Shown here piece by piece: positions 12,692 to 15,411 of a DNA stretch of 20,957 bases. The stretch is from the IMG/VR virus record IMGVR_UViG_3300042293_000738, positions 1 to 20,957 of that record. One strand, written 5' to 3'. The DNA is from a virus. The stretch's first letter is position 1, and each line of letters starts with the position of its first letter. A program made the translations under genes and the position numbers. Under the pieces are notes generated by a model. The model was not told the origin of the DNA. It saw nothing but the letters and a program-made list of their open reading frames with translations, and did not search any database.

Positions 12692-13253
12692 TAATTCCAT
12701 CTTAACCATTAAAGACTTTTTTGATAGACACAAAGGACTTCAAAGAAATAATAGATTTTCTATGTCCTTTTTTAATTTACCGGAGGGACTTCCTGCTGTT
12801 CCTAATAATGATTTAAATCCAATTGCTATAACAATTGGATCCAGAGCAATTGATGGTATCGCTGATAACTTAGCTGGTTATGGTCCAGGTCGTACTGTAC
12901 CAAGATCACAAAAATTTCCACAGGGTATTATGTTATCGTTTCCGGTTACTAATGATAATTTTATTACTGATTTTTATGATGCATGGTTTAATAGAATATA
13001 TTCGGGTGGTAGACAACAAGGTGATTATAGTAAACCCTTTCAATTGTCTTTTTATGATGATATAATTGCAAATTCACAAATGAAAATAGATTTATTAGAT
13101 CCCAATGGAAATATAAATCGAAGTTTTACTTTCTTTGAAGTTTATCCAATTGAATCTTTACCATTGGAACTTAATATGTTAGATACAAATAGATATTTGG
13201 TTTATCAAGTGTTAATGATGTTTAGAGATTTTACTATTACAAAGGCGACATAA
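12675..13253 (+). CDS. Tail-tube-fold protein, baseplate tube initiator gp54-like (or gp19-like)
   Basis: The 192-aa protein has the tube-fold pattern. An N-terminal RNNRFSMSF strand is followed by LP-rich loops, ITIGSRAIDGIADNLAGYGP near 55-74, and VPRSQKFPQGIMLSFPVTND. The helix NFITDFYDAWFNRI precedes ...FQLSFYDDII, MKIDLLDPNG and FEVYPIESLPLELNM. It ends with the YQVLMMFRDF strand. The order (strand, F-P-x-x-x-x-x-F-P, helix with FYDAW, then Y-P-x-x-(I/L)-x-x-(L/I) and a final beta strand) is shared by T4 gp19 (163 aa) and gp54 (320 aa). Being beside gp48, gp4 and gp26 rather than downstream of the sheath favours gp54. It starts inside gp4, with weak AAAAGA upstream. It could instead be a second tube protein. 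Confidence 0.6.
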   Translation: MPTPNNNSILTIKDFFDRHKGLQRNNRFSMSFFNLPEGLPAVPNNDLNPIAITIGSRAIDGIADNLAGYGPGRTVPRSQKFPQGIMLSFPVTNDNFITDFYDAWFNRIYSGGRQQGDYSKPFQLSFYDDIIANSQMKIDLLDPNGNINRSFTFFEVYPIESLPLELNMLDTNRYLVYQVLMMFRDFTITKAT

Positions 13254-13256
13254 TTT

Positions 13257-13919
13257 ATGGATTTGTTTAATTCTTTAGAAAATTTATTACCAAAATATGA
13301 AACAGTATTACCTTTTTCAAAAGAAAAGGTATCCTTTACTCCATTTAGAGTAAAAGACGCTAAAAATATTTCTATTATTTTACAAGAAGATAATAAAAAA
13401 TTAGCATTAACTTCTTTAGTAGATTTGCTTAATACAAATATTAAAGGAACCAATATAATGAATTTATGTATTGGTGACGCAGAGTATTTGTTTTTACAAA
13501 TTAGATCTAAGAGTGTAGATGAACGACTAAATTTAATCTACAATAAAGAAAAACTACAAGTTTTTATTTCTGATATTAAAACAAGAAACAGTATTACCAG
13601 TGAAACAATACAATTAACTGATGATGTGAATATAATGGTAGAAACTCCTACCATACAAGATTTGCTTAAATTAAATACATTGGAAAAAGATGAATTAATT
13701 AAAGCATCTATTAAAAAAATAAGTGTAGGTGGAGAAATTTATTATGTTAATAAATTTGTAACAGAAAATTTACAAAAATTAATAGATAATCTTCCAATGA
13801 CCGTACTTCCAAAATTAGATGAGTTTATATTAAAACAACCTGAATTGTTTGTTACTCTACAAACACAAGAAGGTGATAAGGAGGTCAGTGGATTTTTAAG
13901 TTTTTTTACTTGTCGGTAA
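13257..13919 (+). CDS. 26: gp26-like baseplate/tail assembly protein (probable tail-assembly-chaperone first frame)
   Basis: The 220-aa protein resembles the T4 gp26 family (T4 base plate protein family, T4 gp26 208 aa). Evidence is VSFTPFRVKDAKNISIILQE near 25-44 and GDAEYLFLQIRSKSVDER at 73-90, with the D-(A/L)-E-Y-L-F-x-x-(L/I)-R-S-K-S-(V/I) signature. The remainder is alpha/beta with a helical C-terminus. T4 gp26 is needed for hub assembly. By position and family it may act as a chaperone for the tape measure, which is inference. It begins three bases after the gp54-like stop. Its last codons carry a candidate -1 frameshift signal (13878-13960) leading into the following ORF, giving a predicted fusion of about 285 aa. 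ATG is preceded by AAAGG about 10 bases upstream. Confidence 0.78.
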   Translation: MDLFNSLENLLPKYETVLPFSKEKVSFTPFRVKDAKNISIILQEDNKKLALTSLVDLLNTNIKGTNIMNLCIGDAEYLFLQIRSKSVDERLNLIYNKEKLQVFISDIKTRNSITSETIQLTDDVNIMVETPTIQDLLKLNTLEKDELIKASIKKISVGGEIYYVNKFVTENLQKLIDNLPMTVLPKLDEFILKQPELFVTLQTQEGDKEVSGFLSFFTCR

Positions 13920-13960
13920 AGTTTTTTGATCTTAAAGACTATTTTACTACAAACTTTACC
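13878..13960 (+). promoter_or_regulatory. Candidate programmed -1 ribosomal frameshift site
   Basis: Seen directly: AAGGAGGT at 13878-13885, a Shine-Dalgarno perfect for a typical 16S tail but followed by no usable start codon; T-TTT-TTT at 13901-13907, in the right phase (codons TTT TTT, residues 216-217 of the gp26-like protein); a 7-base spacer; then a perfect 10-bp inverted repeat GGTAAAGTTT (13915-13924) / AAACTTTACC (13951-13960) with a 26-base loop. The gp26 stop (13917-13919) lies in the stem. The -1 frame has its own stop at 13877-13879, so slipping must occur between there and 13916. Confidence 0.68.
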
Positions 13961-14113
13961 TTAATAAATAACTTTAATTGGAATTTAACTAATCTTGATA
14001 ACATGATATGGTGGGAAAGAGAAATTTATATTAAACTATTAATAGATTATCAGGATCAAAAAAAGCAAGAACATATGAATAACAGATTTGATATGGGAGG
14101 TATAAACCTATGA
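13910..14113 (+). CDS. Short overlapping -1-frame ORF, gp51 position (likely made as a gp26 fusion)
   Basis: Up to 67 codons lie in the -1 frame relative to the gp26-like gene and overlap its end. The first possible starts are TTG at 13910 and rare codons. There is no ATG until residue 32 (NM-IWWEREIY). The sequence has FNWNLTNLDNMIWWEREIYI then KLLIDYQDQKKQEHMNNRFD. This W-(N/S)-L-(T)-x-(L/I)-(D/E)-x-M-x-x-x-E-R-(E/D)-(I/V)-Y pattern is seen in small phage proteins at this place (gp51 in T4, GT-extensions elsewhere). I cannot place it firmly in the gp51 family. Two routes are possible: a free protein from TTG by coupling, or a C-terminal extension of the gp26-like protein by -1 frameshift, which the local signals favour. 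Its TGA overlaps the next ATG (ATGA). Confidence 0.6.
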   Translation: MSVKFFDLKDYFTTNFTLINNFNWNLTNLDNMIWWEREIYIKLLIDYQDQKKQEHMNNRFDMGGINL

Positions 14114-14529
14114 TAGACGATACAAATGGATTTTCAATTGATGTTGGAGCAGAACAACAAGCTTTTTCTGCTGCTCTAACACCATCTAGTATAGAATCAC
14201 CGGCAATAGTATCTTCAGCTGCCAACCAACCATTACCAGAATCTATAATTTATCAACCTACTAATGTAAATATATCGGAACAAACCAAAGCTGAAGTTTC
14301 TGTAGTTGCTTTAGATTTAAGAGTTAAATTTGATGCAGAGGATAGCTACAATAAACTCAAAGATGTTGTTGAGGGGGTTCAACAATCGGTATCAAATTCT
14401 AATGACAATCTAGGTATACCATACCCAAAAGCATCTAATGATTTTGAAGAACGACCTTCTTTAGAACAAACAAATTTAATTTTTGATAATCGAAAAGAAC
14501 GATTTTCTCAATATCCTAAGTGGGCATAA
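14110..14529 (+). CDS. Unknown 139-aa protein, last gene of the rightward tail operon
   Basis: I do not recognise it. The sequence is Ser/Asn/Gln-rich and low in cysteine. It contains TPSSIESPAIVSSAANQPLP at about 24-43, a possible helical stretch EDSYNKLKDVVEGVQQSVSN near 78-97, and a charged C-terminus ending RKERFSQYPKWA. No signal peptide or membrane segment is visible. ATG overlaps the stop of the gp51-position ORF (ATGA), indicating coupled translation, and GGAGGT lies about 10 bases upstream. In many phages the gene after the assembly-chaperone pair is the tape measure, but this one is much too short and not coiled, so the tape measure must be elsewhere. It could be a small hub or tail assembly factor. 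A perfect terminator follows two bases after its stop. Confidence 0.72.
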   Translation: MIDDTNGFSIDVGAEQQAFSAALTPSSIESPAIVSSAANQPLPESIIYQPTNVNISEQTKAEVSVVALDLRVKFDAEDSYNKLKDVVEGVQQSVSNSNDNLGIPYPKASNDFEERPSLEQTNLIFDNRKERFSQYPKWA

Positions 14530-14530
14530 A

Positions 14531-14552
14531 AAAAGCCCCTTACGGGGCTTTT
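14531..14552. terminator. Bidirectional rho-independent terminator between convergent operons
   Basis: A perfect 9-bp stem AAAAGCCCC / GGGGCTTTT has a TTAC loop and flanking A and T runs on each side. It lies in the 24-base gap between the rightward tail operon (stop 14529) and the leftward gp32 gene (stop 14554), so it can end both transcripts. Confidence 0.93.
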
Positions 14553-14553
14553 C

Positions 14554-15411
14554 TCACTCATTCTCCATTTCGGAAAAGTACTTTAGAGGATCCTTTTCCT
14601 CAATGTCTTCACTGACTACATTATCAGTGACATCATCTTCAATACTCTTTGACTCAGTAAACTGAGCACGAATATCGTCTCCAGTTGCCTTCTTGAGTCG
14701 TGCCTTAAGTTCATCATAACTCTTGAATTGACTCTTGTCAGTAAACTCCTTGAGTGCATATTGCTTCTTCCAGAGTTCCTCTAACTTCTTATCATCCCCA
14801 CCAAGCAGAGGAGCAGCAGCAGCAAACTCTGAACGATCATAGTTTACATATCCACCGACATTGCGAATCTTGATCTTAAAGTCTGCACCAGTCCAGAAGT
14901 TGAATGGATCGACTGCAGTCTCATCCTGGTACTCTGGATGAGCAAGTCCCTGAATCTTCTGGAAGATCTTGGTACCATACTGATAAAGAAAAACCTTTCC
15001 CTTATTCTCTGGGTTTGCAGGATCTTCAAGAACAAGAATGTTAGAGATGTAAGTCAACTTACGCTTACGGTTTCGTGCAATATTCTTGTCATCCTCAATT
15101 CCACTATTCCATAGTTCTGTGTTTGCTTCACAAACAGGGCACTTTTCTCCAAGAGTAGTTGGGCAGTTTTCAAACAACCAACCACCCTTACCCTTGAAGG
15201 CATGACTGTAAACTGAAACAAAGGGAGTATCTTCTCCTGCAATCTCAGGAAGAAAGCGAATTACAGCATAACCGTTTCCAGCCTTGTCAATACCAGGCTT
15301 CCAAATACGGTCATCTTTGTAACTCTCCTTTGACGTGAGCTTATCCATGCGCTCGGTTAGTGATGCGACTGAGTTCTTACTCTTCTTCTTAAAATCTGAA
15401 AAATTTGCCAT
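14554..15411 (-). CDS. 32: Single-strand DNA-binding protein gp32
   Basis: gp32 coats single-stranded DNA in replication, recombination and repair, and in T4 regulates its own mRNA. The 285-aa protein (T4 gp32 301 aa) has the basic N-terminal cooperativity segment FKKKSKNSVASLTERMDKL and the OB-fold core. It keeps the zinc site: His70 (SHAF), Cys83, Cys91 and Cys94 (ENCP...KCPVC), with the His-Cys spacing of 13 seen in T4. Later come KGKVFLYQYGTKIFQKI, AVDPFNFWTGADFKIKI and a strongly acidic C-terminus (SIEDDVTDNVVSEDIEEKD). Base use is richer in G+C than its neighbours (one 60-base row at 14881 counts 31 G+C). A sigma70-like promoter and a leader hairpin lie upstream. gp33 is directly upstream. 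Confidence 0.97.
   Translation of the reverse strand: MANFSDFKKKSKNSVASLTERMDKLTSKESYKDDRIWKPGIDKAGNGYAVIRFLPEIAGEDTPFVSVYSHAFKGKGGWLFENCPTTLGEKCPVCEANTELWNSGIEDDKNIARNRKRKLTYISNILVLEDPANPENKGKVFLYQYGTKIFQKIQGLAHPEYQDETAVDPFNFWTGADFKIKIRNVGGYVNYDRSEFAAAAPLLGGDDKKLEELWKKQYALKEFTDKSQFKSYDELKARLKKATGDDIRAQFTESKSIEDDVTDNVVSEDIEEKDPLKYFSEMENE

Follow-up and report, generated by a model that had tools for sequence, protein, structure and literature searches.

The window, by which we mean the whole stretch of 20,957 bases analysed here (virus record IMGVR_UViG_3300042293_000738, positions 1 to 20,957), belongs to a T4-like virus that infects bacteria. Its + strand carries, in this order, a gp4-like head completion gene, a tail-tube-like gene (phrog_45, E 4.7e-7) just 5' of a gp26-like gene, the gp26-like gene itself, an ORF in the −1 frame and a 139-aa ORF, after which gp32 follows on the opposite strand. 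The gp26-like ORF (13257..13919, + strand), listed here as tail assembly chaperone N, the putative short form, encodes 220 aa and ends in the zero-frame stop TAA at 13917..13919 (+ strand). It belongs to the Pfam family T4_baseplate (PF12322), which it matches above the curated cut-off and across the span of the protein (E 2.9e-23, 83.2 bits against a cut-off of 24.5, profile positions 2-218 of 219), and it also matches the PHROGs profile phrog_150 (E 9.4e-24). A nucleotide similarity search of positions 13000-14700 against phage records gave no match; protein searches were therefore used instead.

The first-pass annotation had proposed that a −1 slip fuses the gp26-like protein to the ORF in the position of gp51, and the parts it named are in place. 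The slippery heptamer T TTT TTT lies at 13901..13907 (+ strand) in the correct phase (AGT TTT TTT ACT) and is separated by a spacer of 7 bases (13908-13914, + strand) from a possible stimulatory stem-loop (13915..13960, + strand), whose 10-bp stem is formed by the arms GGTAAAGTTT (13915-13924) and AAACTTTACC (13951-13960) on either side of a 26-nt loop and encloses the zero-frame TAA. Upstream, 15 bases before the T run, lies an internal Shine-Dalgarno-like (SD-like) element, AAGGAGGT (13878..13885, + strand; in frame AAG GAG GTC). Read after the slip, the −1 frame would add a gp51-like C-terminal extension of 68 aa (13907..14113, + strand), hereafter the tail. Conceptual translation gives 220 aa for the zero-frame product and 285 aa for the fusion, as had been estimated from the letters alone. 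The tail ends in an ATGA (14110-14113) and thereby overlaps the 139-aa ORF (14110-14529, + strand), to which it is coupled as described before and whose family matches are weak (Pfam 0.063, PHROGs 0.048). No tape measure gene was identified beside the gp26-like/tail pair among the Pfam and PHROGs family matches of the window; in the phages Cr30 and HTVC008M, a tape measure gene is annotated beyond the gp51-position gene, with one ORF intervening.

Taken singly, the T7, AAGGAGGT and the stem are no more than chance would provide, and it is sequence conservation across relatives that lifts them above it. The window contains 15 copies of T7 where shuffles predict 27, which is fewer than by chance. 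AAGGAGGT is present in a single copy, and 42 of 100 shuffles contain at least one. For the window alone, the stem fold has −8.7 kcal/mol (z −1.69), and 13 of 200 shuffles are as good.

Conservation of the proposed slip site and its flanking elements

A first scan of viral contigs yielded 38 relatives at 47-100% identity, all 38 confirmed matches being used. From three further scans we took the best 80 of at least 590, the best 80 of at least 587 and the best 80 of 91 confirmed matches. The set examined comprised 276 loci, among them six named phages, and the window, with some contigs repeated, and gave 208 distinct 120-nt junctions, in five of which the contig ends before the −1 stop. With six further ones, the named phages fetched number 12, all hand-picked from match lists of 336 and 622 records. 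Where two T runs were in phase, the upstream one was taken; in a few rows this displaces the tail by three codons. All P values treat representatives at 70% protein identity as independent and, as these are not fully so, overstate certainty.

In all 38 relatives of the first scan, T TTT TTT is in phase and 16 bases before the stop. Among the matches listed, 207 of the 208 distinct junctions carry T TTT TTT or T TTT TTC in phase no more than 40 bases from the stop; the sole other one (L147) has TTTTTTA, which is also of the form X XXY YYZ. The T run at these same listed junctions is 6 bases long in 118, 7 in 86 and 8 in 4, and the seventh base is a C in 115 of the 208, with the X XXY YYZ phase kept. 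All 12 named phages fetched (S-RIM8, Cr30, phiN3, P-SSM4, P-SSM5, AG-345-E15, HTVC008M, DLP6, P-HM2, S-PM2, P-RSM4 and Sf-FP1) likewise have T TTT TTT or T TTT TTC in phase. The gp26 of HTVC008M (L279) ends in T TTT TTT TAA, with the stop abutting the heptamer, an arrangement shorter than that of the remaining named phages. Beyond the zero-frame stop, the −1 frame stays open for at least 158 nt in 203 of 203 listed junctions with enough contig. A conserved in-phase X XXY YYZ with an open −1 frame, by which −1 programmed frameshifting is recognised, is thus what these loci present.

At the codon level, T TTT TTN is present in 88 of 88 representatives at 70% protein identity among the matches listed, so that the first codon is TTT and the preceding codon ends in T in each of them. 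As the heptamer served to define the groups, a representative without it would have biased the phenylalanine counts, but no such case occurred among the 88. A T-ending preceding codon in all 88 listed representatives has a log10 P of −21 under independence. In contrast to the fixed first codon, the second is TTT in 61 and TTC in 26 of the 87 listed representatives with T6T or T6C. A fixed TTT, a T-ending codon before it and a free second codon are, as codon usage goes, the X XXY YYZ pattern and not a Phe-Phe motif alone. In the window's clade, TTT makes up 92% of phenylalanine codons, and the poly-T is therefore only weakly informative there; in the −10 clade, the first codon is TTT in 42 of 42 against a baseline of 0.73 (P 2e-6).

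The tail itself varies like a coding sequence read in the −1 frame, judged by its diversity at the three codon positions over 60 clade sequences (0.229, 0.175, 0.411). In tails that have no start codon near their beginning, the corresponding values are 0.477, 0.382 and 0.528, with a small third-position excess.

The SD-like element was analysed through the Glu, Lys and Phe columns of 32 representatives of the window's clade. Its GAG codon is kept in 31 of 32 against a baseline of 0.17 (P 1.5e-23) and its AAG codon in 21 of 22 against 0.15 (P 1e-16); these two are the only outliers among 44 testable columns, the next having a P of 0.08. Such codon choice indicates that AAGGAGGT is under nucleotide-level selection in the window's clade. 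It had been noted at the outset that no start codon can use the element, and indeed none of the 32 clade representatives has a −1-frame ATG, GTG or TTG 0-21 nt downstream of it; it is therefore not positioned for a start of the tail. A putative upstream SD stimulator is thus present as a sequence feature, selected in the window's clade and less strongly marked in the −10 clade, where the corresponding GAG is found in 26 of 36 (baseline 29%). No SD-like core was found in 11 of the 43 representatives whose spacing is −16, a set that includes other lineages. In dnaX the SD spacing is about 10, shorter than the 15 of the window, a mismatch to which attention had been drawn before; 15 also exceeds the commonest spacing in the −10 clade, which is 10 (26 of 42).

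For the stem, 65 distinct 66-nt regions with −16 spacing were available, from which 13 of other lineages (L127-L198) were excluded and 52 used, with the window representing L237, which is identical to it. In these 52 clade sequences, 90.8% of cells form standard pairs, as against at most 66.2% for slid versions of the stem, and 17 cells are changed on both sides, as against 7.2 in shuffles. Three of five measures exceed every shuffle and the other two do not (108 and 157 of 500); the pairing is in part due to conserved amino acids in the −1 frame. All ten pairs form in 26 of the 52 sequences, with the remainder descending to runs of 4 (L277) and 2 (L276). All 13 distant sequences with the same slip spacing are without the stem, their longest runs being of 4 to 6 pairs. 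Given the clade alignment, RNAalifold favours a different 7-pair hairpin that includes the slip site and is incompatible with a ribosome there, for which reason we keep the 10-bp stem as possible and not as established. In a comparison of junctions such as the first-pass annotation had suggested, slip site and phase are kept in the listed matches; the stem, which it had counted as a part of the frameshift signal, is present in the window and may be a clade-specific stimulator with moderate support, but is not general.

Relationship to T4 gp26 and gp51

Both T4 proteins match PF12322 (gp26 with E 8.8e-64, gp51 with 3.9e-52), which makes them paralogues. In T4 gp51, the match to phrog_150 spans residues 3-248 of 249 and that to phrog_634 residues 147-246. 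The −1 tail of the window matches the latter profile as well (E 6.4e-15), and the 285-aa fusion covers its positions 51-113 of 121. Against phrog_150, the short form scores 85.3 bits over profile positions 12-232 of 282, and the fusion 101.3 bits over positions 12-276. The predicted fusion thus combines, in silico, a gp26-like domain with the C-terminal extension of gp51, as expected of a long form.

When aligned, the fusions from the window, from two relatives and from five named phages continue past the slip point into the C-terminus of T4 gp51, whereas T4 gp26 stops at the slip position, ending in KEFFELL. By this alignment, T4 gp51 is the in-frame counterpart of the window's fusion. Genes 26 and 51 of T4 are separate and lie on opposite strands; T4 thus holds as two genes what is one locus in the window and in the cyanophages examined. 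A T4-type gp26/gp51 frameshift, as it had been called, would therefore apply to the window and its relatives, but not to T4 itself.

T4 gp26 (L045:3803-4429) also has a weak match to phrog_1140, the baseplate hub distal subunit (E 9.4e-4), which may point to one more relative in the group of hub genes.

The predicted fold of the short form has a mean pLDDT of 87.3. We realigned 995 Foldseek-ranked chains to it with VIA-align, in which the N-terminal domain was closest to the uncharacterised 3fgx (Z 7.0) and to the HK97 chaperone 2ob9 (Z 6.3), the next value being 3.0; all of these Z values are below the tool's caution level of 8. The Foldseek comparison of the short form with the HK97 chaperone is not significant (E 1.2), and we therefore count an HK97 gp13-like fold as suggestive only. 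Among predicted viral structures, 50 match the short form with E ≤0.001, many of them named baseplate hub subunit or hub assembly chaperone. A search of the gp26 profile against the sequences of solved structures gave a single match with E 0.15, which is not usable.

Interpretation of the junction

We put the probability that one gene here gives rise to two tail assembly chaperones, through a −1 slip by a minority of ribosomes, at roughly 93%. The slip is supported by the conservation of the heptamer, by the selection on the codons of the SD-like element and by the in-frame counterpart in T4 gp51. Most ribosomes would read the gp26-like ORF through to the TAA and produce the short form of 220 aa. 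The others, a minority retained through pairing of their anti-Shine-Dalgarno with AAGGAGGT and perhaps delayed at the stem, would move back by one base on U UUU UUU and read the −1 frame to 14113, yielding the 285-aa long form with its gp51-like extension. That ribosomes slip, how efficiently they do so and what the SD-like element and the stem contribute are what we infer from the sequences. On the model of lambda G/GT, the short form may coat the tape measure protein while the tail of the long form recruits the tube protein; it is this analogy that suggests binding of the chaperones to both partners. As T4 gp26 and gp51 are of one family, with gp51 in frame and gp26 ending at the slip position, they would be a short and a long chaperone of the lambda G/GT kind.

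The alternative that survives best, though we give it only a slight chance, is that gp51 is a separate small gene translated by restart near the gp26 stop, from TTG 13910 in the window or from an ATG in relatives, with AAGGAGGT retaining the ribosome. A Shine-Dalgarno sequence before the ends of genes could aid re-initiation, according to a passage in PMC5009743, and GenBank records do annotate a distinct gene at the tail position: gp26 and the tail appear as separate genes, none of them joined, in all 11 annotated named phages fetched. Yet the annotated starts are scattered, from a 1-base overlap with the gp26 stop in Cr30 to 89 nt past the stop in P-HM2. The annotated gp51 genes measure 93 nt in P-HM2 (L281), 138 in HTVC008M (L279), 174 in S-PM2 (L282) and 186 in P-SSM4 (L042). 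Such scattered-start genes in cyanophages and the pelagiphage are probably fragments of the frameshift tail; given the separate annotation, the tail starts of the 11 named phages are probably wrong, and those of other records may be too.

Start codons within the tail bear on restart in both directions. The tail of the window had been described as having no ATG in its first 31 codons, and the absence holds, with the first ATG at the 33rd codon after the slip, one later than claimed; owing to the TTG at 13910, which could start most of it, the tail is not wholly start-less. Among the matches listed, 42 of 85 complete-tail representatives, the window not being one of them, have neither ATG, GTG nor TTG in the first 13 codons of the tail. 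Homologues with an ATG-started gp51 and without a slippery sequence, which the first-pass annotation had set against its own proposal, are found in the first respect only: L034-L038 have such an ATG, yet no representative of the 88 among the matches listed is without the heptamer. In L034-L038, the ATG of the −1 tail overlaps the gp26 stop (ATGA), and coupled restart could there add free tail protein. Restart is further at odds with an SD-like element that no −1-frame start follows at 0-21 nt in 32 of 32 clade representatives, and it leaves the invariant heptamer and the in-frame T4 gp51 unexplained.

Less probable still is slippage of RNA polymerase on the T run, by which mRNAs lacking one base or gaining two would encode the fusion. 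This is a known alternative route of recoding (mentioned in PMC5009743), and every junction among the matches listed has a T run, but the runs are short (6 to 8), a C stands at the seventh position in more than half of these listed junctions (115 of 208) with phase kept, and the selection on the SD-like codons would be unexplained. Like restart, it is disfavoured against the ribosomal slip. Chance, with Phe-Phe kept for the sake of the protein and the poly-T and overlapping ORF as by-products of AT-richness, can draw on the invariance of Phe216 and Phe217 across 30 aligned proteins, on the TTT bias of the clade and on T7 being common in the window, but has next to no probability in view of the constant first TTT of the −10 clade, the T-ending preceding codon in 88 of 88 and the homology of the tail to the C-terminal end of T4 gp51.

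Returning to the ribosomal slip, a broader reading seems to us evenly poised between right and wrong: that an internal SD-stimulated −1 slip on U UUU UUY would be the general and probably ancestral route to gp26/gp51 outside the T4 group, that T4 would later have split it into two paralogous genes, that the gp51 genes of cyanophages and pelagiphages would be fragments, and that the SD-like element and the stem would be undescribed tuning parts.

Comparison with known systems

The principle of −1 frameshifting in phage tail chaperones is already known. We take gp26 and gp51 to be the T4-like chaperone genes of Vladimirov et al. 2022, going by the title of that work and the passages that cite it. 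A passage in PMC12846349 credits this work with poly-T slip signals in T4-like chaperone genes, and a passage in PMC10885494, which also cites it, describes some T4-like phages as having a short gene and a fusion gene in place of frameshifting. In light of these two passages, the statement of the first-pass annotation that it knew of no description for gp26/gp51 fails as a claim of novelty. In the literature searched, to which the text of Vladimirov et al. 2022 does not belong, we found neither the SD-like element nor the stem described for this locus.

T4 and the window share the protein family, both matching PF12322 and phrog_150, and differ in that T4 has two paralogous genes on opposite strands and the window has both parts at one locus in two frames. 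Viewed together with the window, gp51 would be the long and gp26 the short tail assembly chaperone, which makes the function of gp51 testable against the model of lambda G/GT.

The slip heptamer of lambda G/GT is GGGAAAG, in contrast to the T TTT TTT of the window. Lambda also differs in its surroundings, since the genes that come next in the window are the 139-aa ORF and then gp32 on the opposite strand; what the two would share is that a −1 slip, close to where the upstream gene ends, gives short and long forms (for lambda, PMC5009743). In lambda, as summarised in PMC5009743, gpG binds the tape measure protein and the extension of gpGT brings the tube protein. In the chaperone locus of the Pakpunavirus Adele and of Andersonviridae, conservation of a poly-T motif together with an unbroken −1 frame has led others to infer a −1 frameshift (PMC12846349), and the window shares both features; the motif there is GTTTTT and the phages are of other families.

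The E. coli dnaX cassette consists of an upstream SD stimulator, a slippery heptamer and a downstream stem-loop (as outlined in PMC5009743), and the window has, in the same order, an SD-like element, a heptamer and a possible stem-loop. It differs from dnaX in the heptamer (U UUU UUU as against A AAA AAG), in the SD spacing of 15, in a weaker stem and in an unrelated protein, and its SD-like element may offer a natural case for asking in what way slip rates depend on an internal Shine-Dalgarno sequence.
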